This document shows positions 4,512-16,245 of a stretch of DNA of 64,000 bases, in pieces. Source of the stretch: Armatimonadota bacterium (lineage in GTDB: Bacteria > Armatimonadota > Fimbriimonadia > Fimbriimonadales > Fimbriimonadaceae); NCBI GenBank assembly GCA_018268395.1, contig JAFDWQ010000003.1, forward strand, positions 703,353 through 767,352, given 5' to 3'. The notes under the pieces are model-generated. The model had not been told where the DNA came from and did no database searches. It worked only from the letters and a program-made list of their open reading frames with translations. Every line of letters starts with the position of its first letter. The stretch's first letter is position 1. Position numbers and translations under genes: made by a program.

Positions 4512-6239
4512 GTGCGGTCGTCCATCAGGTATCAGGTTCCCAAAGTGAGAAGGCTGGAGCGGTTCGAATGGATCCTTGGAGCGGCGATCGTCGCGGTCAT
4601 GGGCGGCGCCGTCGTCTGGCAACGGAACATGGAGTCTTCCGGGACTCCGACCGCCGTCGCGAGGGTCGTTCCGAAGGACGGCCAGGCACCGAACGAAGCC
4701 CCTGCCTTTCCGGACATTCGTCCGAGCCGTCCCGGAGACCGCGCCGTCATCGTCATGTACCACGATGTCGTCAAGCGCCGCGGATCCGGATCCGTCTATT
4801 TTGATACGACCGTCAGAGAGCTGGAGCAGGACATCGAGACGATCGAGAAGGAAGGTGGTACGGTCGTTCCTTTGTCCGATGTCTACGATGCGCTGACGGG
4901 AGACAAGACCCTACCTCCGAACGCCGTCGCTTTGACCTTCGACGACGGCTACCTCGGTTTTTATGAAAACGCCTTCCCGATCCTTAAGGCTAAAGGCTAT
5001 CCGTCGACCGTGTTCATGCACACCGCCTTCATCGGAAAGACCGAAGGCAGCCATCCTAAAATGACCCTCGAGCAGTTGCGCGAGCTCGAAGCTTCGGGCC
5101 TCGTCGACGTGGAATCGCACACCGTCACGCATCCCGAGGACATCACGACCCTGACCACGGAAAAGATCCGGACGGAACTGACGGAGTCCAAGAAGGTCCT
5201 CGAAGAAGCCCTCGGCAAAGAGGTCAAGTTCTTGAGCTGGCCGATCGGGAAGAACGACGCGCTGACCCAGTCCGAAGCCAAGGACGCCGGTTACAAGCTG
5301 GCCGTGACCATGGAGCCAGGCCTGGCCGCCGAATCGCCCAATGTCTTGGCCGTCAACCGGATCACGCGGAAACGCCTGGAAGAGTCCTTGAAACGAATGG
5401 CGGCGGCACCGCCCGTAGGATACGCCGAGGTCGCTTGGCAGGACGCGCCGGTGTCGCTCCAAGACGACAAGCAAGGCCGGGTCGAACTCCTGACTTTGAC
5501 GGGCGGACGTCCGTCGTCGGTGTTGATCGACGGCCGCGCTTCGGTCGCCGAGATCGTCTCGCAGTTCCAAGGCGTGGCTGGGATCAACGGCGGCTTCTTC
5601 TCGATGGCCGCCATCGCCGCCACCGACAACACGATGATCGGCCCGTGCATGGCGTCGAACCGGAGCTATCTCGTCCCCGACGACGACGCAGCGAGAGCCG
5701 AAAAGCTGGCAGGTCGGCCTCTCGTCGTCTGGGGGCCGACCAAAGCCGTGATCACGCCGTTCAGCCCGAAGTCACTGAACACGGATACCGCGATCAAGGC
5801 CCTTGTCCCCGACATGACGGACGCCTTCGTGGCCGGCGCATGGCTCGTCTTCCAAGGCAAGCCCTTGACCAAGGAAGAGATCATGGGCGCGGCGACCAGC
5901 GACGCTCAAGACCCTCGCAAACGGAGCTTTTTCGGCTTGACCCAAGACGGCAGGCTGATCGTCGGAGCGACGAAGAACGGCGCGACGTCCTCGATGCTGG
6001 CCGAAGCCGCGGCTCAAGCCGGAGCGTGGACGGCCGTCCTCCTCGATTCAGGCTTCTCCACGTCTCTCTTCGTGGACGGGAAGACGCTGGCCTGGGGCCA
6101 CCGTGGAGCCGAAGGCGGCTCGCGGCCCGTGCCTCACGCGATCGTCATCAAAGGCGGACTCGATCCGGCCCTGAATACCGAAGGGATGGAAACCGTCGAG
6201 CAGGCGAAACCCGAGACGCGCCGCCGTCGGCGTCGCTGA
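4512..6239 (+). CDS. Polysaccharide deacetylase - phosphodiester glycosidase (NAGPA-like) fusion
   Basis: A 575-residue membrane-anchored, probably periplasmic protein with two catalytic modules. Residues 17-36 form a single N-terminal membrane segment. Residues 75-300 are a NodB-type polysaccharide deacetylase: TFDDGY (142-147) carries the catalytic and metal Asp pair and SHTVTHP (202-208) the metal histidines. Residues 310-560 match the phosphodiester glycosidase (NAGPA/DUF2233) fold, with GINGGFFS and VLLDSGFSTSLFVDG motifs. A GTG start is chosen because GGAAGGG lies a few bases upstream. It likely edits cell-wall or surface glycans by removing acetyl groups and phosphodiester-linked sugars. 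The C-terminus ends in a basic run. The gene is convergent with, and abuts, the DUF2314 gene. Confidence 0.85.
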   Translation: MRSSIRYQVPKVRRLERFEWILGAAIVAVMGGAVVWQRNMESSGTPTAVARVVPKDGQAPNEAPAFPDIRPSRPGDRAVIVMYHDVVKRRGSGSVYFDTTVRELEQDIETIEKEGGTVVPLSDVYDALTGDKTLPPNAVALTFDDGYLGFYENAFPILKAKGYPSTVFMHTAFIGKTEGSHPKMTLEQLRELEASGLVDVESHTVTHPEDITTLTTEKIRTELTESKKVLEEALGKEVKFLSWPIGKNDALTQSEAKDAGYKLAVTMEPGLAAESPNVLAVNRITRKRLEESLKRMAAAPPVGYAEVAWQDAPVSLQDDKQGRVELLTLTGGRPSSVLIDGRASVAEIVSQFQGVAGINGGFFSMAAIAATDNTMIGPCMASNRSYLVPDDDAARAEKLAGRPLVVWGPTKAVITPFSPKSLNTDTAIKALVPDMTDAFVAGAWLVFQGKPLTKEEIMGAATSDAQDPRKRSFFGLTQDGRLIVGATKNGATSSMLAEAAAQAGAWTAVLLDSGFSTSLFVDGKTLAWGHRGAEGGSRPVPHAIVIKGGLDPALNTEGMETVEQAKPETRRRRRR

Positions 6240-8417: not shown

Positions 8418-9476
8418 TTACTGGGTCACGTCCCAAGCCGCGTAATCGAAGTTGACGCACGGCTTCGTCGAGGCCGACGGGCCGACCTGACGGATCTGGA
8501 CTTGAGACTGCAAGGCGCCTGCTGTTCCGACGTAGCGCGAGACGTCGCCCGTCGCGACCAGATCGGTGTACTGGTATCCGGTATTGATCGTGTCGGTCCG
8601 CGACTCCTCGTAAGCGTTCGTCACGAAATTGAACAGTCTCAGGGTCTGGGTGAACGAGCCGTTCGTCGCCATGGCGGACTTGATCCGGAAGCGCAAGGCT
8701 TTCTGAGACGTCAACGTGGTGTTGCCGGTGACCGCGAACTGGACGAAGGGTGACGTCTGGTTGGGCACGATGAACTTACAGACGACAAGGGGGGTGTTGT
8801 CGGCCGTCTCGAGGCTGGCCACGCTCCCGGTCGAGATCTTGCCGAAACTCAGGCTGAGGTTGGAAGGCGGTACCGTCTCCGAATCCGCACTGAAGATCTT
8901 CACGTCGTCGATGTTGATCTGCGACCCCGAGGTTTTTACGAACTGCACCGTGATGAACTGCCCGAGGTTCGGATCGTTGACGTCGGCCGTGTACGTCGCG
9001 GACACCAGGACGAACGAGTCCGGCGGGATCGAAGTGTGGTCGAAGTGGACCGTCGTCAACAACGTGCCACCTGTGACGACGCCGTTCGTTTGGCTTCCTC
9101 CAGCCCAGACTTTCATGTCGAAAGAGCCTGCGAAGCCGTCGTGTCGACGTCCGGCCTGGACCGTCACTGTATTCGCCCCGAGACTGACCACGTTCGTGGA
9201 CTGTTGCGCCAGGTTGGTCGTATTGGAGTAGCCGATCTGTAGGCCGTCCGGTGCGGTCGTCTCGAAAAACGAGGTCGAGGGAATGTGCCAGACACCCGTC
9301 CCTCCTCCCCACCCGATGATCCCGGACGACGAAAACGTACCGAGAGCGAGGGGCGGGTCTTCGAACGAAGCATTGATGAGGGACGCGGAGGCCGATCCTG
9401 CCATGAAACAAGCGAGCGACGAAAGCGCACCGACCTTGAGAAGTGACCGGTTCCGGGACGAGAAGTGCCTAAACAT
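8418..9476 (-). CDS. Secreted protein with C-terminal Armatimonadota-type repeat domain
   Basis: A 352-residue exported protein of unknown function. The start at 9476 gives a typical signal peptide (basic start, hydrophobic core, cleavage near SASA); the reading frame stays open upstream but that part looks non-coding. Residues 35-200 resemble the galactose-binding-like beta-sandwich of secreted PEP-CTERM proteins (LINASFEDPP, then a GW-rich strand). The last ~140 residues form a second domain with SLSFGKISTGS, LRFRIKS, LRLFNFVTNAYEES and DYAAWDVTQ, whose pattern also occurs at the C-terminus of the subtilase at 14512-16245. No PEP-CTERM anchor follows. It may bind glycans at the cell surface, but that is inference from fold only. 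Confidence 0.8.
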   Translation of the reverse strand: MFRHFSSRNRSLLKVGALSSLACFMAGSASASLINASFEDPPLALGTFSSSGIIGWGGGTGVWHIPSTSFFETTAPDGLQIGYSNTTNLAQQSTNVVSLGANTVTVQAGRRHDGFAGSFDMKVWAGGSQTNGVVTGGTLLTTVHFDHTSIPPDSFVLVSATYTADVNDPNLGQFITVQFVKTSGSQINIDDVKIFSADSETVPPSNLSLSFGKISTGSVASLETADNTPLVVCKFIVPNQTSPFVQFAVTGNTTLTSQKALRFRIKSAMATNGSFTQTLRLFNFVTNAYEESRTDTINTGYQYTDLVATGDVSRYVGTAGALQSQVQIRQVGPSASTKPCVNFDYAAWDVTQ

Positions 9477-9577
9477 GATCGACAGTATGCGGCAAAGACC
9501 GGCCGGTTTCGAAACGGCCCGGACCTGAAGCGCAGACGTCTCAGCGCGGTTTGCGGACACTTTGCGGTGGAAGTCGC

Positions 9578-10396
9578 TCAGGCGCCTTCACTGTCGTCCG
9601 GGTCGCCCACCGGCGCGGATTGCGAGGGGCGCATCCTCGTTTGGACCTCCTCCATGAACCCGACCGTGAAGACACCGATCGGCAGGCCGAGGACGATCGC
9701 CGCAACGCATAACATGTACAGGCAGGTGAAAAGTTTGCCCCCGACCGTGACCGGGGACATGTCGCCGTATCCCGTGCTTGTGAACGTGACGACGCTCCAA
9801 TAGAAAGCCTGGAAGACGTCCGCGTACTTGTCCGGCTGGGCGTCTTTCTCGAACCAGTAGATGAAGATCGTCGCAAAGATGATGGTGATCGACCAGATCG
9901 TCAAAGCCGACTTGAAGAACGGCCAAGCCCGACGAAGGGCCGCGATGATCAAATCGTCCGCCTGGCTGAACGCGAAGATGCGCAACAACCGGACGCTCAG
10001 ACCGAGAAGCATCACTTGCCTGTTGTTGAACACGATGCCGAACACGCCGCAAACGACGGCGACGACATCGATGAAGTTGAGCGGCTTGAACGCGAACCTC
10101 AAGCGCTCCAAGCCTTGGGGATAGCGGTCGTCGGGATCGAATCCGGAGGACCAGACGCGCAACCCGTACTCCAGCGCGATCGTGGCGAGGATCACGCCCG
10201 CCGTCCACTCCAGCAGGCGGTAGTAAGGGGCCAGGTCCTTGACCGTCAACAGGGCGCCGACGAAGAGGCCGATCAGGACGATCGCCACGGAAGCCCTGTC
10301 TAGGAAGACTTCGGCTTTCGTGTCCCTCGGCTGGGCCTCCAACAACGTGTAGAGCTTGCGTCCAAAGCTGTCGTCGGTCGTCTTGTGTCCGTCCAT
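9578..10396 (-). CDS. Voltage-gated-like potassium channel, six transmembrane segments
   Basis: A 272-residue cation channel of the Kv superfamily. Four hydrophobic segments form a sensor-like domain (ASVAIVLIGLFVGALL, LLEWTAGVILATIALEYGLRVW, FIDVVAVVCGVFGIVF, and an S4-like MLLGLSVRLLRIF with only two arginines in register), followed by pore helices S5 and S6 around a selectivity filter TSTGYGD, a variant of TTVGYGD. Few S4 charges suggest weak or no voltage gating. The ATG at 10396 is preferred to a GTG at 10456, as the extra residues look non-coding. The C-terminal tail is short, without an RCK domain. Confidence 0.87.
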   Translation of the reverse strand: MDGHKTTDDSFGRKLYTLLEAQPRDTKAEVFLDRASVAIVLIGLFVGALLTVKDLAPYYRLLEWTAGVILATIALEYGLRVWSSGFDPDDRYPQGLERLRFAFKPLNFIDVVAVVCGVFGIVFNNRQVMLLGLSVRLLRIFAFSQADDLIIAALRRAWPFFKSALTIWSITIIFATIFIYWFEKDAQPDKYADVFQAFYWSVVTFTSTGYGDMSPVTVGGKLFTCLYMLCVAAIVLGLPIGVFTVGFMEEVQTRMRPSQSAPVGDPDDSEGA

Positions 10397-10487
10397 GTCG
10401 CTTTCGCCGCCAACGTATACCAGCAGAGGACGCGTCGCAGGCACATGAAGAGGCACGCGAGGAGCGGGACGCCGCGCCTGGACCCGC

Positions 10488-10493
10488 TAAACT
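10488..10493 (+). promoter_or_regulatory. Candidate -10 element (TAAACT) of the aminotransferase gene
   Basis: TAAACT, six bases (CCGCCG), then the ATG at 10500. No Shine-Dalgarno sequence is present. Confidence 0.45.
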
Positions 10494-10499
10494 CCGCCG

Positions 10500-11696
10500 A
10501 TGCCTTCCGCCCTCGTCCACTTTCCGCCCATGGGCGTCTACGAAACGCTCTTCAAGTTCCTCGATGCGACGGGGAAGTACATGGGGACGGATGGGACGCA
10601 CCCGTGGGCCCAGGGGTTTCCTCTGACCAGCCCCTTACCCGGCGGCCCGGACATCCCGACCAAGATCGAGTTCGGCTACTCCGAATTGAAGTACCCGCCC
10701 GCGACCGGGGGAATGGAACTGTTGACCGCGGTCCGGGACTACTACAACCATTTCTACGGGTCGGACATCACGACCGACAACGTCGCCGTCTTCGCGGGCG
10801 GACGACCTGGGATCTACGCGGTACTGGCCTTCTTACTGCCCGAATACCGAGTGCTGATCGAAGAGACCGAATACACGCCGTATTGGGACGCGCTGCACCT
10901 TCTCAAGCGGGACCACGCGATCATTCCGAGCAACCCGGGCAACGGCTTCAGGCCGAGCCTGCACGACTACCAGGTCTTCGCCCCGTTCTCGTTCGTCGTC
11001 AAGAGCAATCCGTGCAACCCGACGGGCGTGACGTGGAAGGGCGAAGCGCTCAAGTCGATGGTCGAATGGTGCAGCGAGCCGGGAAGGGGCGGATTGTTCG
11101 ACGAAGCCTATGAGTTCTTCCAAACGGGCGAGCCCGAAAGTGCGATGCGTCATGTCGGCGATATCGATAAGACCAACGTGTTCGTCGTCAGCGCCGCGAC
11201 CAAGGGCCTGCAAGCCCCTGGTCTACGAGTGGGATGGGTCGTCGCGTCCAAGGAGAACATCGAGCTGTTCCGGAACTTCTCCAGCATCGCCGTGGGCGGT
11301 GTCGCCCGCCCGTCCCAGATCGCCACGGCCCAGCTCTTGGCGACCGACCGGGTCGCCCACGCCCGACAGGCGGTCAGCGGGTTCTACGGCTCCCAACGCG
11401 ACCGATATCGAAGCGCCCTCGAGGACCTGGGCCTCGAACTCCATACCGGGGACGGCGGCTTTTATCATTGGGGCCGCTTGCCGGGCGGACTGTCCGCCGA
11501 GGAGTTCAACCGGCGGCTCTTCCGGCGCGACGCGGGCGTCTTGCCGGGGACCCTCTGCGACATGTTCCGGCGCGGGGCCGCATCGCCACTTGCGGACTAC
11601 GTCCGGTTTTCTTTCGGGCCGCTCCCTGCGGACAGTTTCGAAGAGGACGTCGAGATCTTAAAGAGTGCTCTTTCGTCCGAGACCGTGACCGTCTAA
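10500..11696 (+). CDS. PLP-dependent class I/II aminotransferase
   Basis: A 398-residue fold-type I aminotransferase. Family landmarks are KSNPCNPTG (substrate/PLP contact Asn), GLFDEAYEFF (Asp and Tyr contacting the pyridine ring and phenol), the Schiff-base lysine in VSAATKGLQAPGLRVGW, and a C-terminal VRFSFGPLP with the carboxylate-binding Arg. The N-terminal FKFLDATGKYMGTDGTHPWAQG replaces the usual substrate-gating segment, so donor and acceptor cannot be named; it is similar in layout to aspartate or LL-diaminopimelate aminotransferases. Its last bases overlap the convergent gene by four bases. Confidence 0.85.
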   Translation: MPSALVHFPPMGVYETLFKFLDATGKYMGTDGTHPWAQGFPLTSPLPGGPDIPTKIEFGYSELKYPPATGGMELLTAVRDYYNHFYGSDITTDNVAVFAGGRPGIYAVLAFLLPEYRVLIEETEYTPYWDALHLLKRDHAIIPSNPGNGFRPSLHDYQVFAPFSFVVKSNPCNPTGVTWKGEALKSMVEWCSEPGRGGLFDEAYEFFQTGEPESAMRHVGDIDKTNVFVVSAATKGLQAPGLRVGWVVASKENIELFRNFSSIAVGGVARPSQIATAQLLATDRVAHARQAVSGFYGSQRDRYRSALEDLGLELHTGDGGFYHWGRLPGGLSAEEFNRRLFRRDAGVLPGTLCDMFRRGAASPLADYVRFSFGPLPADSFEEDVEILKSALSSETVTV

Positions 11697-13366
11697 TCCG
11701 GGAAGAAACCCGCGTCTTTCGCGAACTGCTCCAGGCCGGAGAAGTCGCCGCGCCATGTCGTGTACATGACGCCGTAGGGCCGTCCGGCCTCCGACATCCA
11801 CTGGGCGATGGGAGTCCCACCCCCATCGTAGTAGCCCGCCAGGATCTGTCGCGTTTTGAGCCCGACGAAGAAGCCGATCGCCTTTTTGCGGTCCTGACCC
11901 ATGTTCCAGTTGACGACAGTGACGTCCTTGTCCAGCCCCTTCCAAGAGTCCTTCCATGGACCGTCTCCGTTTACGAGGTAGTACTTGCCCGCCGTGGCGG
12001 CGTTGTGGAACGGGTCGAACATGTCCGACCACACGTAAACCGGCTTTCCAGGATCGGCCTTTCGGACGGCGGTGGTGCAGTCTCTGACGTTCCGGGCGAG
12101 CAACGCGCCCGGGGACAGGCCGTCGCGGGTGCAACCCAGGTCCCAACCGCCGACCCGGATCTCGTCATGGCTGAGCATATAGCCGTCCGGAGCAAGATTG
12201 TCCTTCACCTTGCCGATCTGCCACGTCACGGCTTCCATGACTTTGGGTTCTCCCAGGCAGCACGTCACCTGCCCGTCATAGATCAAGGCGGTGTGGCAAT
12301 AGTCGACAAGGACGGTCTGTCCGGCCTTGATACGACTGCCCGAAGGCACGGTCATCGTAGGGCCGTCGTGCCACACGTCGTAATCGCCTGGCCAGGCGAC
12401 GCGACCGGTTTTCGGATCCTTGGCCCCTTCGAAGTCCCGCCCTTCTTGGTAGCGGGTCGTCCCGTCTTCGCTCGTCACGGTGAACGGGGCGCCGGACCGT
12501 CGGACAAGATTGACGAGGCCGCCCCGTTCGATGCTGACGTCGTCCCACCAGATCTGGCCTCCAGAGTGGCCCCAGACGCCGACGTACAACGAGACCTGGC
12601 CGTCGCTCAGCGAGTTGAACGTCACGTCCATCGGGGTCCAGTCCATGTCCGCTTTGATGGGCAAGCTCCGGTGCTGGAGCGACCGGCCCGACTTTCCGAG
12701 CACGGTGACGTTCACGTTTCCCGGTTCTTTGAGCCCCTTCGTCTTGACGGAGAGCCGCAAGTGGTAGTACGAGAACGGCTTCACGTCGAGGACTTGCACG
12801 GCCCGCGCGTTCCCACCGTCGGCCGGATCCATGCGGAGGGACGCACGTCCTCCGGACTTTACGTCCGTATCCAGGACGCAGACCTTTCCCGGCGAGTCCA
12901 CCCAGTTCCAACCTGACGGGGCAGGACCGCCTTCGGCGTCGAAGCCTCCGTTCTTGAGCCCGGCGTCGTCCGGTCGGGGCGACAGACGGCCATCCTCGCC
13001 CGCGACGAACGGGGCGTCGACGACGGGAAGACCCTCGGCAAGGTCGGGATCGCGGCACAGGAGATCGTTGGAGTAGCCGATGGGTGCGACGGCGGCGACC
13101 AGTTCCATGTGCGATTCCTTGACCGCCCTACGGAATCTCCGCACGTTGGTCGCGTATCTTTCAGGTAGGTCGTCCCACCTCATGAACTTACTGTCGCTTA
13201 CGAGGACTCCGTTGTAGCCGGCTTTGGCCGCACGCCGGACCGTCTCGAGGCCCTTGTCCACGTTCGCGTCGACGAGAAGGTTCGTCGAAAGATAGAGCCA
13301 CCGCTTTTCGGGCGCGCTGAAGGGCACGGGAACGATGGCGAGGGCGGCGAGGAGCGCCACGGTCAT
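11693..13366 (-). CDS. Secreted glycoside-hydrolase-like TIM barrel with inserted carbohydrate-binding module
   Basis: A 557-residue exported protein of unassigned family. After a signal peptide (residues 1-17), residues 20-120 begin an alpha/beta barrel (LETVRRAAKAGYNGVLVSDSKF). Residues 140-270 form a CBM4/9-like beta-sandwich insert (LKNGGFDAEGG, then GGRASLRMDP, then IWWDDVSIERGG), after which the barrel continues with YMLSHDEIRVGGWD, holding a plausible acidic pair, and VYVWSDMFDPFHN. Barrel-plus-insert order resembles GH20-like hexosaminidase relatives, but no family catalytic motif is certain. TATCAT lies six bases before the ATG. The upstream tRNA-Pro is on the same strand. Confidence 0.72.
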   Translation of the reverse strand: MTVALLAALAIVPVPFSAPEKRWLYLSTNLLVDANVDKGLETVRRAAKAGYNGVLVSDSKFMRWDDLPERYATNVRRFRRAVKESHMELVAAVAPIGYSNDLLCRDPDLAEGLPVVDAPFVAGEDGRLSPRPDDAGLKNGGFDAEGGPAPSGWNWVDSPGKVCVLDTDVKSGGRASLRMDPADGGNARAVQVLDVKPFSYYHLRLSVKTKGLKEPGNVNVTVLGKSGRSLQHRSLPIKADMDWTPMDVTFNSLSDGQVSLYVGVWGHSGGQIWWDDVSIERGGLVNLVRRSGAPFTVTSEDGTTRYQEGRDFEGAKDPKTGRVAWPGDYDVWHDGPTMTVPSGSRIKAGQTVLVDYCHTALIYDGQVTCCLGEPKVMEAVTWQIGKVKDNLAPDGYMLSHDEIRVGGWDLGCTRDGLSPGALLARNVRDCTTAVRKADPGKPVYVWSDMFDPFHNAATAGKYYLVNGDGPWKDSWKGLDKDVTVVNWNMGQDRKKAIGFFVGLKTRQILAGYYDGGGTPIAQWMSEAGRPYGVMYTTWRGDFSGLEQFAKDAGFFPD

Positions 13367-13372
13367 ATCCGG

Positions 13373-13378
13373 ATGATA
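13373..13378 (-). promoter_or_regulatory. Candidate -10 element (TATCAT) of the secreted glycosidase-like gene
   Basis: TATCAT is separated by six bases from the ATG at 13366; it lies between this gene and the tRNA-Pro. Confidence 0.45.
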
Positions 13379-13414
13379 CTGGGCGATCGGCACCGCTTCA
13401 ACAAGAATGTCTGG

Positions 13415-13488
13415 TCGAGGCGACAGGATTCGAACCTGCGACTTCTTGCTCCCAAAGCAAGCGCTCTACCAAGCTGAGCTACGCCTCG
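13415..13488 (-). tRNA. tRNA-Pro (anticodon UGG)
   Basis: On the minus strand the sequence folds into a complete cloverleaf: 7-bp acceptor CGAGGCG/CGCCTCG, D-arm with GCTC...GAGC, anticodon stem CTTGC/GCAAG around loop TTTGGGA, T-arm GCAGG/CCTGT around TTCGAAT, and discriminator A. The anticodon UGG is at 13454-13452. The CCA end is not encoded. Confidence 0.96.
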
Positions 13489-13521
13489 TCGGGCCCGATT
13501 CTACCGGTTCGCGCGGATGCC

Positions 13522-14103
13522 CTAAGGGCGGTCTTTTCCGGTCGGGGCGACGGCGTACACCATGACGGCGACAGGTTGGCCCCGTTTCATCCCTTTGTGG
13601 CAGTCTACGCATTCTTTCTTAGACAAAAGAACCGGACGAGCCTCGAAGGCGACGTCGCCTCTGACGGCCTTGAGAGGGCTTCGGCCCCCTTTCGACCATT
13701 CCTTGACGGCTTTCAAGGCGAGCTCGTATTCGGCCCGGCCCTCACCTTTGTCCCGCCGGTGCGTGACCCCGTTCATGTCCTTCGTGTAGCGTCGCTCGAG
13801 TCCCTGTGCGGACAGGGGTTTCCCTTTGTTCCCGAAGATGGCGACGTTCGTCAAGAATCCTGGCGTCGTCGGCCGAGAAGGCTTCCGGCCATGGGTTTTG
13901 ATGTTGTCGACTTCCACCCGGCCGATCCCGAACGTGCCGTCCTTCGTCAGGGCAAGGTCTGCGAACAACGCCTGGTACTTGGCGTCGAGCTCGGCGACGA
14001 TCTTGTCGACCTGTTTGTCACCGGATAAGCCCGCCGTCGAGGCGGCCGCGGCCAAAGCCAGACCGCAACCGAGGACGGCCCATCGCCTTGTCAGTTTGCC
14101 CAT
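13522..14103 (-). CDS. Exported mono-heme protein with a single CxxCH site
   Basis: A 193-residue protein with an N-terminal export signal (residues 1-25, alanine-rich core; a VLGC stretch could be a lipobox). The only heme c attachment site, ECVDCHKGMKRG, lies near the C-terminus and is followed by a hydrophobic strand. Residues 30-150 are helical and charged. The layout (sensor-like N-part, C-terminal CxxCH) recalls DUF3365/Tll0287-type heme sensors, but the match is weak. It probably sits in the periplasm and carries electrons or senses redox state or gas. The BON-like gene lies 42 bases upstream on the same strand, so the two may share a transcript. Confidence 0.75.
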   Translation of the reverse strand: MGKLTRRWAVLGCGLALAAAASTAGLSGDKQVDKIVAELDAKYQALFADLALTKDGTFGIGRVEVDNIKTHGRKPSRPTTPGFLTNVAIFGNKGKPLSAQGLERRYTKDMNGVTHRRDKGEGRAEYELALKAVKEWSKGGRSPLKAVRGDVAFEARPVLLSKKECVDCHKGMKRGQPVAVMVYAVAPTGKDRP

Positions 14104-14145
14104 GTAGCACGGACGTCCGGAGTTCGGACCGGTTTTGCATCAAGG

Positions 14146-14385
14146 TCAACGATAGGCGCAATCGATGACGACGTCCTTGATCATGCCCTTCTGCCGCAGG
14201 CCGTTCGCGGCGTTCTGAAGGGCGACGCGGACGTCCGGCGGGCCGCCGGCGACGGCCTTGACGACGCCCCGGATGTAGGCGACGCCGTGCATGACCCGGA
14301 CGTCGGCTTGCGTGACGTCGATCATCTTCTTGCCCAGTTCGCTTCGAAGGTACTTGCCGGCTTGCACGTCTTTCGGGTCGGCCAT
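14146..14385 (-). CDS. Small cytoplasmic BON-like protein
   Basis: A 79-residue protein without signal peptide. The pattern VRVMHGVAYIRGVVKAVAG followed by an amphipathic helix (LQNAANGLRQ) and a closing strand KDVVIDCAY resembles a single BON-type alpha/beta unit, which normally binds membranes or ligands. TAAACT lies exactly six bases upstream of the ATG. The assignment rests on pattern only; it could be an unrelated small alpha/beta protein. Confidence 0.6.
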   Translation of the reverse strand: MADPKDVQAGKYLRSELGKKMIDVTQADVRVMHGVAYIRGVVKAVAGGPPDVRVALQNAANGLRQKGMIKDVVIDCAYR

Positions 14386-14391
14386 GGCCGC

Positions 14392-14397
14392 AGTTTA
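14392..14397 (-). promoter_or_regulatory. Candidate -10 element (TAAACT) of the BON-like gene
   Basis: TAAACT, six bases (GCGGCC), then the ATG at 14385; no ribosome site is seen. Confidence 0.45.
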
Positions 14398-14465
14398 GCA
14401 GACAGAATGTGCCGAAACGAATCCGTACGACGATCAAATCGAGCCCGAAACGCGTCAGAAGAGCG

Positions 14466-14471
14466 TATACT
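14466..14471 (+). promoter_or_regulatory. Candidate -10 element (TATACT) of the subtilase gene
   Basis: TATACT lies 40 bases upstream of the ATG at 14512, giving a conventional leader of about 34 nt. No good -35 box is seen. Confidence 0.35.
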
Positions 14472-14511
14472 GACGGTGACGGTGGCAGCCGACGCCGTCG
14501 GGTGGAACATC

Positions 14512-16245
14512 ATGTATAAACGATTGATCTTTTCGGGCCTCGCCGCCCTTCTGTCCGCGGCGCCAGCGCTGGCGGCTGGGGCTGGCGGAGTGAACGGTCC
14601 TTTCATCGAGCAAAAGGGCGTCCTCGAGTTCACACGGACGTTGATCGTCCGACCGTTGCAGGCCGTGGCCCTGGCTCAGCGAGGCTACGACAGCCAGACG
14701 ATCGCCGCCGTCCAGAGGCGCGCCGCCGACAGGCTCCGGCCCTATCGGCTCAAGTACTACGCGAAGACCGACTGGTCGATCGTACAGATCCCGTTCTATT
14801 CCGACGAGAACGACATGAGCAAGGCCTTGATGGCGACGGGCGACTATGAGTACGCCGTCCCGAACTGGAGGTGCTATGTCAATGCGGCGAAGAAGACGCC
14901 GAACGACCCCCGTTTCAGCTCGCAATGGCAGCACAAGGTGATGAGGTCCGAAGAGGCCTGGAACCTTCACACGGGCACGAACAACGTCACGGTCGCGATC
15001 GTCGACACGGGCGTCCTGATCACGCACGAAGACCTGAAAGCGGGCATGGTCAAGGGCTACAACTCGGTCGACCGTAAGGCCGAAGTGGACGGCGGCGACG
15101 TCGTCGACGTCCATGGCCACGGCACCCATTGTGCCGGTGACGCGGCTGCGCTCGGGAACAACGGGATCGGGCTCGTCGGCGAAGGATGGAACTTCAAGAT
15201 CATGCCGATCCGGGCTTCGCTCAACGGTAGCGCCTCGTTCGACGACCTGTTCAACGGTGCGATGTGGGCCGCCGACCACGGCGCCAAAGTCGTCAGCGTG
15301 AGCTTCTCCGGCGTGGACAGCCCCGCCGTCAATACGACCGGTACGTATGTCAAGGGCAAAGGCGGACTCCTCTTGTGGGCGGCCGGGAACGACGCACGCG
15401 ACCTGAGCGGCTTCAGCCATCCGGACACCATCGTCGTCGGCGCGACCAACTCGTCCGACACGAGGGCCGGCTTCTCGGCCTATGGCAAGGGCGTGGCCGT
15501 CTTCGCACCCGGCGAGGGCATCTGGTCCACGACCGTCGACGGCGGCTACGGCGCCGCGAGCGGCACGAGCATGGCGACCCCGATCGCGAACGGCGTCTGC
15601 GCCCTGATCTGGTCGATCAACCCGTCCTTGAAGCCCAAACAGGTCCAGACGATCCTTTACAACAACTGCGACCAGATCGGCTCCCCGTCGATCTACGGGC
15701 ACGGCCGGGTCAACATGCTGAAGGCGGCGCAAGCGGCGATGGCGACCAGGACGATCGCCATCGACTACAAGCCGGCGACGCTCAGCCTGTTGCAGGGAAC
15801 GTACGTTTCGGGCAATCTGGGCATGGTCCAGAACGGCACCGGTGCTGGCTATGTCGCCAAGAGCGTCAAGGTCAACGGAGTGGGCGAGTCGTCGATCGCC
15901 AAGATGGACTTCAAGCTGGGCTATAGCGCAGGCGCGACCGAGTCGGTCGTATCGAGCTTCAAGCTCTCGACCTCGAAGGGCAGCAACTCGACCGTCCAAG
16001 TGTTCTTCTGGAACTTCAGCACGGGCCGTTACGACATGATCAAGACGACTCCGATGCCGAACGACGGATCGGTGTTCACCTTCAGCCATTCGTACAACGC
16101 CAGTATCGCGAACTACCTGGCCACGGACAAGACGCTGAGGGTCGCCGTCCGCGCGTTCTCGCCGGTCGGTCGGCGCGGCGAGCCGGGCAGCCCGTTCCAG
16201 CTCACGCTGAAGCAAGGCAAACTCACCGCCAACGTCCTTCCGTAA
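14512..16245 (+). CDS. Secreted subtilisin-like serine protease (peptidase S8)
   Basis: A 577-residue exported protease. Signal peptide residues 1-22 (LAALLSAAPALAAG), then a propeptide-like region to about residue 135 containing a fervidolysin-like TDWSIVQIPF stretch, then the S8 domain with the catalytic triad: Asp in VAIVDTGVLITHED, His in HGHGTHCAGD, Ser in GTSMATPIANG. The oxyanion Asn is in LLLWAAGND. The last ~150 residues form a C-terminal domain (TLSLLQGTYVSGN, STVQVFFWNFSTGRYDM) that resembles the C-terminal part of the secreted protein at 8418-9476. It presumably degrades extracellular protein. The start at 14512 is used because the longer frame upstream has no signal sequence. Confidence 0.92.
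   Translation: MYKRLIFSGLAALLSAAPALAAGAGGVNGPFIEQKGVLEFTRTLIVRPLQAVALAQRGYDSQTIAAVQRRAADRLRPYRLKYYAKTDWSIVQIPFYSDENDMSKALMATGDYEYAVPNWRCYVNAAKKTPNDPRFSSQWQHKVMRSEEAWNLHTGTNNVTVAIVDTGVLITHEDLKAGMVKGYNSVDRKAEVDGGDVVDVHGHGTHCAGDAAALGNNGIGLVGEGWNFKIMPIRASLNGSASFDDLFNGAMWAADHGAKVVSVSFSGVDSPAVNTTGTYVKGKGGLLLWAAGNDARDLSGFSHPDTIVVGATNSSDTRAGFSAYGKGVAVFAPGEGIWSTTVDGGYGAASGTSMATPIANGVCALIWSINPSLKPKQVQTILYNNCDQIGSPSIYGHGRVNMLKAAQAAMATRTIAIDYKPATLSLLQGTYVSGNLGMVQNGTGAGYVAKSVKVNGVGESSIAKMDFKLGYSAGATESVVSSFKLSTSKGSNSTVQVFFWNFSTGRYDMIKTTPMPNDGSVFTFSHSYNASIANYLATDKTLRVAVRAFSPVGRRGEPGSPFQLTLKQGKLTANVLP

Follow-up and report, generated by a model that had tools for sequence, protein, structure and literature searches.

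Do two secreted proteins encoded in one stretch of an Armatimonadota genome end in the same domain, and what might such a domain do for them? The stretch in question, here referred to as the window, comprises 64,000 nucleotides from a member of the Fimbriimonadaceae (positions 703,353 to 767,352 of contig JAFDWQ010000003.1, assembly GCA_018268395.1). In the window, an HpiC1-like protein encoded on the minus strand (8418-9476) ends in a tail of ~150 residues, and a subtilase (14512-16245) consists of a signal peptide, a Peptidase_S8 domain, and a tail of its own; neither tail alone matches any model in Pfam or NCBIfam. A first-pass annotation had described the tails as a C-terminal domain with common motifs in two unrelated proteins, had stated that many exported armatimonad proteins end alike, and had offered sorting, anchoring, or glycosylation as possible roles of a lineage-specific domain standing where PEP-CTERM stands in other bacteria. 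We find that the two tails are related, and we suggest that they belong to a domain that may retain exported proteins at the cell surface. The two proteins are organized as follows:

8421..8882 (-): tail of the HpiC1-like protein, a predicted C-terminal jelly-roll domain that forms row 1 of the 40-copy alignment A1 (AlphaFold2 predicted local distance difference test (pLDDT) 97.3, predicted template modelling score (pTM) 0.90)
8895..9380 (-): HpiC1-like cargo domain (PF22825, E 1.1e-15)
9384..9476 (-): probable ATG start and probable signal peptide, MFRHFSSRNRSLLKVGALSSLACFMAGSASA, assigned by eye and narrowly missing our strict signal-peptide rule
14512..14577 (+): subtilase signal peptide, MYKRLIFSGLAALLSAAPALAA
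14980..15705 (+): Peptidase_S8 subtilase cargo domain (PF00082, E 3.8e-43)
15760..16242 (+): tail of the subtilase, a predicted C-terminal jelly-roll domain and a divergent copy identified with profiles (AlphaFold2 pLDDT 83.9, pTM 0.81)

Because BLASTP of the HpiC1-like protein against the subtilase gave no match, the two sequences alone are insufficient to establish kinship, and profiles were needed. When 40 copies of the HpiC1-like tail group were aligned by hhalign with five copies of the subtilase tail group, the two profiles matched with a probability of 99.0 (E 9.5e-18) over 147 columns, and LRLFNFVTNAYEES pairs with VQVFFWNFSTGRYDM in this alignment; the profile-profile similarity whose absence the first-pass annotation had named as fatal to its proposal is thus present. 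In a search of the whole genome, the subtilase-free 40-copy profile recovered the subtilase of the window (E 0.003), a leave-out profile lacking only the window subtilase found it at E 4.5e-7, and a 168-copy profile from which all subtilases and locus L008 had been removed still found it at E 4.9e-6 (Z = 30000). Reversed sequences used as a control gave no matches at E <= 10. Apart from the window subtilase, the leave-out search showed a single frame in the range E 1e-4 to 10, at ~0.004; this borderline match lies in the tail of another subtilase of the same genome (L005 1288-3279 (+), G000:C2), possibly an even more diverged version of the domain. The order of strands and helices in the AlphaFold2 models is identical in both tails. 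We conclude that the window tails are two diverged versions of a single domain of ~150 residues. Both were located where the first-pass annotation had placed them, and its quoted motifs are present; the minus-strand orientation of the HpiC1-like protein had not been given there.

The domain is abundant in the genome from which the window derives (hereafter the own genome). Using the HpiC1-like protein as query, we found 44 places in this 3.72-Mb genome, nearly all of them matched via the last ~150 residues, and the 40-copy profile A1 found 68 places at E <= 0.01, corresponding to ~65 proteins after joining pieces split by N runs. All four genomes of the genus have 47-67 places each, and a broad profile (A5) detected the domain in 36 of 41 Fimbriimonadaceae genomes, which fall into two groups: nine genomes carry 36-79 copies each, the other 32 carry 0-18. 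Profile A1 splits the 41 genomes in the same way (32-67 vs 0-12 copies). In a phylum sample in which at most 25 candidates per genome were scored, 27 of 151 genomes matched, most of them from the own family. A scan of GTDB with two strict patterns gave nine loci, all in armatimonad-labelled records (Fimbriimonadaceae and other armatimonads), and searches of plasmids and phages gave no match; these pattern scans and searches are narrow tests of spread beyond the phylum. Thus, the statement that many exported armatimonad proteins end alike is correct for the own family, and the suggested lineage specificity stands in the sense that, within the reach of these tests, the domain is largely confined to one lineage. 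No model in Pfam or NCBIfam claims the domain, and we found no description of it in Armatimonadota in the open-access literature. The family itself is new and uncatalogued, as well as lineage-expanded, while its kind, a C-terminal surface domain, is already known. Four copies in the own genome (L038, L040, L041, and L050) are broken by N runs or a contig end; a frameshift at one place in L038, L040, and L050 was considered and rejected, the breaks being N runs in near-identical paralogues that may have confused the assembly.

The position of the domain is nearly invariant. Among 173 intact distinct copies (61 from the own genome and 112 from other genomes, the latter drawn mostly from high-scoring matches rather than at random; four copies with N runs and one open at a contig end were excluded), 172 end -2 to +10 residues from the stop codon relative to the expected domain end, and 112 end exactly four residues before it. 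The lone exception (in genome G153) has a signal peptide, the domain at residues 23-166, and then a beta-propeller-like repeat. No protein among the copies examined has two significant copies. Two proteins of the own genome, L053 (172 aa) and L034 (182 aa), and four further frames of 178-182 aa in L124-L127 consist of a signal peptide and the domain only. Two PEP-CTERM genes are found close to one of these bare secreted domains, L053 (G000:C12:46883-47335), the first at a distance of ~0.9 kb and the other, a weaker match, at ~4.3 kb.

The proteins that carry the domain are exported and diverse. A strict home-made signal-peptide rule identified 52 of the 65 own-genome proteins as exported, and most of the 13 others look signal-peptide-like by eye, with L022, L024, and L036 being truncated or lacking a signal peptide. 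The 61 cargo regions of the own genome form 44 clusters without detectable similarity to each other (E < 1e-4), the largest with five members, so that "unrelated" is apt for the cargo but not for the homologous tails. Forty-one Pfam families occur among the 61 cargos, including BNR, NHL, FG-GAP, PKD, laminin G, kelch, and subtilase, the last being the commonest (4/61), and by Pfam the majority of the cargos are not carbohydrate-active. Among them is a peptidyl-arginine deiminase of the Porphyromonas type (PF04371, E 1e-32); the Porphyromonas enzyme of this type is a cargo of type IX secretion.

To which fold the domain belongs is suggested by the AlphaFold2 models. For both tails, the top match in VIA-align was the phage baseplate chain 9eui_D (HpiC1-like tail: Z 14.0, root-mean-square deviation (rmsd) 2.8, 143 residues aligned; subtilase tail: Z 14.3, rmsd 2.7, 142 residues aligned), followed by many carbohydrate-binding modules (CBMs) at VIA Z about 9-12 and 4-17% identity. 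Foldseek and VIA matches were mainly to CBM4, CBM61, CBM16, CBM22, CBM32, and CBM15, and a sequence search of the PDB indicated a very weak kinship to CBM15 chains (E 0.03-0.34). Kelch chains also appeared in this sequence search and were discarded, their matches spanning just 23 profile positions. On the basis of the predicted models, the fold is a CBM-like jelly roll. Two cysteine columns co-vary: in alignment A1 (n=40), both cysteines are present in 30 copies, neither in nine, and a single one in one (Fisher p 3.7e-8), and over the 173 copies, which share descent and are not 173 independent events, the corresponding numbers are 77, 94, and two. Because such covariation is expected of a disulfide, the two cysteines probably form one, which in turn would place the domain outside the cytoplasm. 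Two acidic positions are nearly fixed, with aspartate in 161/169 and 145/163 copies; many jelly-roll modules hold a metal, and a metal at the conserved aspartates of this domain, residues 28 and 146 in the HpiC1-like tail, is our guess.

How does the domain relate to PEP-CTERM? The exosortase PF09721 is present in 39 of the 41 family genomes, including the own genome, which has 34 PEP-CTERM places at E <= 0.01, 28 of them over the Pfam cut-off. Over the 41 genomes, the counts of PEP-CTERM (taken at E <= 10, weak matches included) and of the domain are unrelated (Spearman 0.16, p 0.31), with median PEP-CTERM counts of 43 in genomes with at least 30 domain copies and 44.5 in those with fewer. 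Because both systems coexist and their counts are uncorrelated, we rejected the idea that the domain replaces PEP-CTERM genome-wide. All 20 own-genome PEP-CTERM proteins that were fetched (20 of the 34 places) end in the PEP tail, and none carries the domain; conversely, neither Pfam nor NCBIfam calls PEP-CTERM in the domain copies scanned, and both window tails end in predicted beta strands. The own-genome exosortase would have the 28 PEP-CTERM places to serve, and its presence does not imply action on the domain. In this exosortase (G000:C3:106134-107012, outside the window), the PF09721 match is split into two pieces with 81 bases between them, all within one open frame of 355 aa; the split is suggestive of an insertion within the last third of the enzyme.

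At the level of individual proteins, the picture is different. A comparison of 24 PEP-CTERM cargos from the fetched loci with 166 domain cargos gave six pairs, originating from two proteins, at E <= 1e-4 (E 4e-33 to 5e-15), whereas the same 24 cargos gave no match among 178 control genes, a lenient control composed mostly of non-secreted-looking genes. In genome G158, L135 1366-2286, the PEP-CTERM tail of which scores over both the Pfam and the NCBIfam cut-offs, and the domain protein L134 10912-12237 are homologous up to the junction (E 3e-29). In the own genome, L130 15739-16476, which has a PEP tail by motif only, is likewise homologous up to the junction to L042 (E 8e-25) and L029, both of which carry the domain. 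Tail exchange on homologous exported proteins thus involves L130 and L135 with PEP-CTERM and L042, L029, L134, and L131 with the predicted jelly roll. As judged from these sequences, cargo proteins that are homologous can end in either tail, also inside a single genome, and on such individual proteins the domain appears to substitute for PEP-CTERM. The claim that the domain stands where PEP-CTERM stands therefore applies to cargo families that carry either tail and fails for whole genomes.

We propose, with a probability of about 0.5, that this is a surface- or matrix-retention domain acting by glycan binding. In the proposed mechanism, a disulfide-stabilised CBM-like jelly roll of ~150 residues, fused to the extreme C-terminus of many unrelated Sec-exported proteins, would hold its cargo non-covalently on the surface of the cell or within the extracellular matrix, and the ligand would be a glycan belonging to the cell itself, from its envelope or its exopolysaccharide. 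The domain would then be a large substitute for the PEP-CTERM/exosortase tail found on sister proteins in the same cells, with binding instead of exosortase processing leading to the same destination. PEP-CTERM has itself been linked to exopolysaccharide (PMC1569441). The common ancestry, the C-terminal position, the signal peptides (crudely called), the cysteine covariation, the predicted fold, and the PEP-CTERM tail exchange are all computed; from them we infer the disulfide itself, glycan binding, a glycan that is the cell's own, and retention. That a CBM-like domain occupies the place of the PEP-CTERM tail of a sister protein suggests that the two lead to the same place by different routes, and a binding module explains the stand-alone secreted copies and the N-terminal copy better than a secretion tag does. 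Among the three roles initially offered, anchoring by glycan binding appears to be favoured over sorting and glycosylation; this analysis gave no evidence for glycosylation of the domain. Several observations weigh against our proposal. The sharply terminal position exceeds the needs of a simple binding module, and such rigid placement fits a tag better; the top structural match is a phage baseplate protein rather than a CBM; glycan binding is predicted from the jelly roll, which alone is no proof; the PEP tail of L130 is seen by motif only and recognised by no model, which weakens one of the two tail exchanges; the own-genome PEP-CTERM proteins were covered for 20 of the 34 places; and no partner gene recurs near the domain among 16 loci, each 14-20 kb long and chosen for stand-alone or clustered copies.

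The terminal position is what a translocation signal would produce, if an outer-membrane secretion machine recognised the folded C-terminal domain and moved the protein to the surface in a type IX-like manner. Such a signal would agree with the near-constant distance to the stop codon, the very diverse cargo, the exchange of tails with another C-terminal sorting tag, and the expansion at the level of genera, but proteins composed of a signal peptide and the domain have no cargo to sort, and one copy is N-terminal. Moreover, type IX tail models, which we take to be present in both libraries, gave no matches (40 and 58 copies against Pfam, 58 against NCBIfam), SprA_N (PF14349) was found in 0/41 family genomes but also in 0/14 control genomes and is therefore a weak negative, and a recurrent neighbour gene is missing from the 16 loci; we consider a translocation signal the main rival to our proposal, though less likely than retention. 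Equally tentative, if not slightly more so, is the notion that the domain tags cargo for a C-terminal sorting pathway of Fimbriimonadaceae that has yet to be described. The folded jelly roll would be read at the end of the protein by an envelope component, the pathway would run parallel to, and swap cargo with, the exosortase pathway, and the tag would have multiplied to 36-79 copies per genome in some genera.

The predicted fold, the weak sequence kinship to GH114_assoc, and the very weak kinship to CBM15 chains would also suit an ordinary accessory CBM that directs exported enzymes to substrates outside the cell and is unconnected with the cell's own surface. This explanation is improbable because the cargo is mostly not carbohydrate-active, because the domain occurs singly and at one position, unlike usual CBMs, and because it substitutes for PEP-CTERM on the same cargo. 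A cap that aids folding or stability, distributed through gene fusions and irrelevant to where the protein resides, would account for a compact fold with a co-varying cysteine pair; it would leave unexplained the stand-alone secreted copies, the PEP-CTERM exchange, and the restriction of the expansion to some genera, and we regard it as very improbable. Retention by glycan binding remains our preferred reading.

Near both proteins, the window also encodes an envelope-type enzyme (4512-6239, +) in which a polysaccharide deacetylase (PF01522) and a phosphodiester glycosidase domain (PF09992, NAGPA) are fused. The surfaces of Armatimonadota, which possess outer membranes, are little studied. With ~65 exported proteins carrying it in a single genome, the domain labels much of the probable surface proteome and provides a handle on it. 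Homologues within one genome that differ only in their tails are natural swap experiments on the role of a C-terminal sorting tag, a role that is still largely open for PEP-CTERM itself.

Among known systems, PEP-CTERM resembles the domain in being C-terminal on diverse signal-peptide proteins of diderm bacteria in tens of copies per genome (PMC1569441), and in having cargo families in common with it; it differs in consisting of a 24-position motif, a membrane helix, and a basic end rather than a beta structure of 150 residues. The C-terminal domain of type IX secretion is a conserved beta-sandwich on exported cargo (PMC4804311). The domain is likewise a conserved C-terminal beta domain on such cargo, but it is a predicted jelly roll of ~150 residues that matches no type IX tail model. 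GH114_assoc (PF14741) is weakly similar (8/40 copies at E <= 0.1, best 3.5e-4; in a second set, 14/58 copies at E <= 0.01, best 3.9e-5), with a single place in the own genome at 20.9 bits against a gathering cut-off of 22; it is described as N-terminal to GH114, whereas the domain is C-terminal. With CBM4, 15, 16, 22, 32, and 61 the domain shares the predicted jelly-roll fold, and it differs from them in its near-obligately terminal position and an identity of 4-17%, glycan binding being a prediction for the domain. The WxL domain of Gram-positive bacteria is always C-terminal, beta-rich, and secreted, and is found on small stand-alone as well as large cargo-bearing proteins (PMC10599100, PMC9772566). 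It differs from our domain, the hosts of which are diderm, with no DUF916-like partner found in the 16 loci and no sign of a link to peptidoglycan. In Pfam scans of 40 and 58 copies, WxL, a model of which is presumably included in Pfam, was not matched. The WxL domain is the closest working parallel; the domain described here is likewise C-terminal, beta-rich, and present on secreted stand-alone and cargo-bearing proteins.

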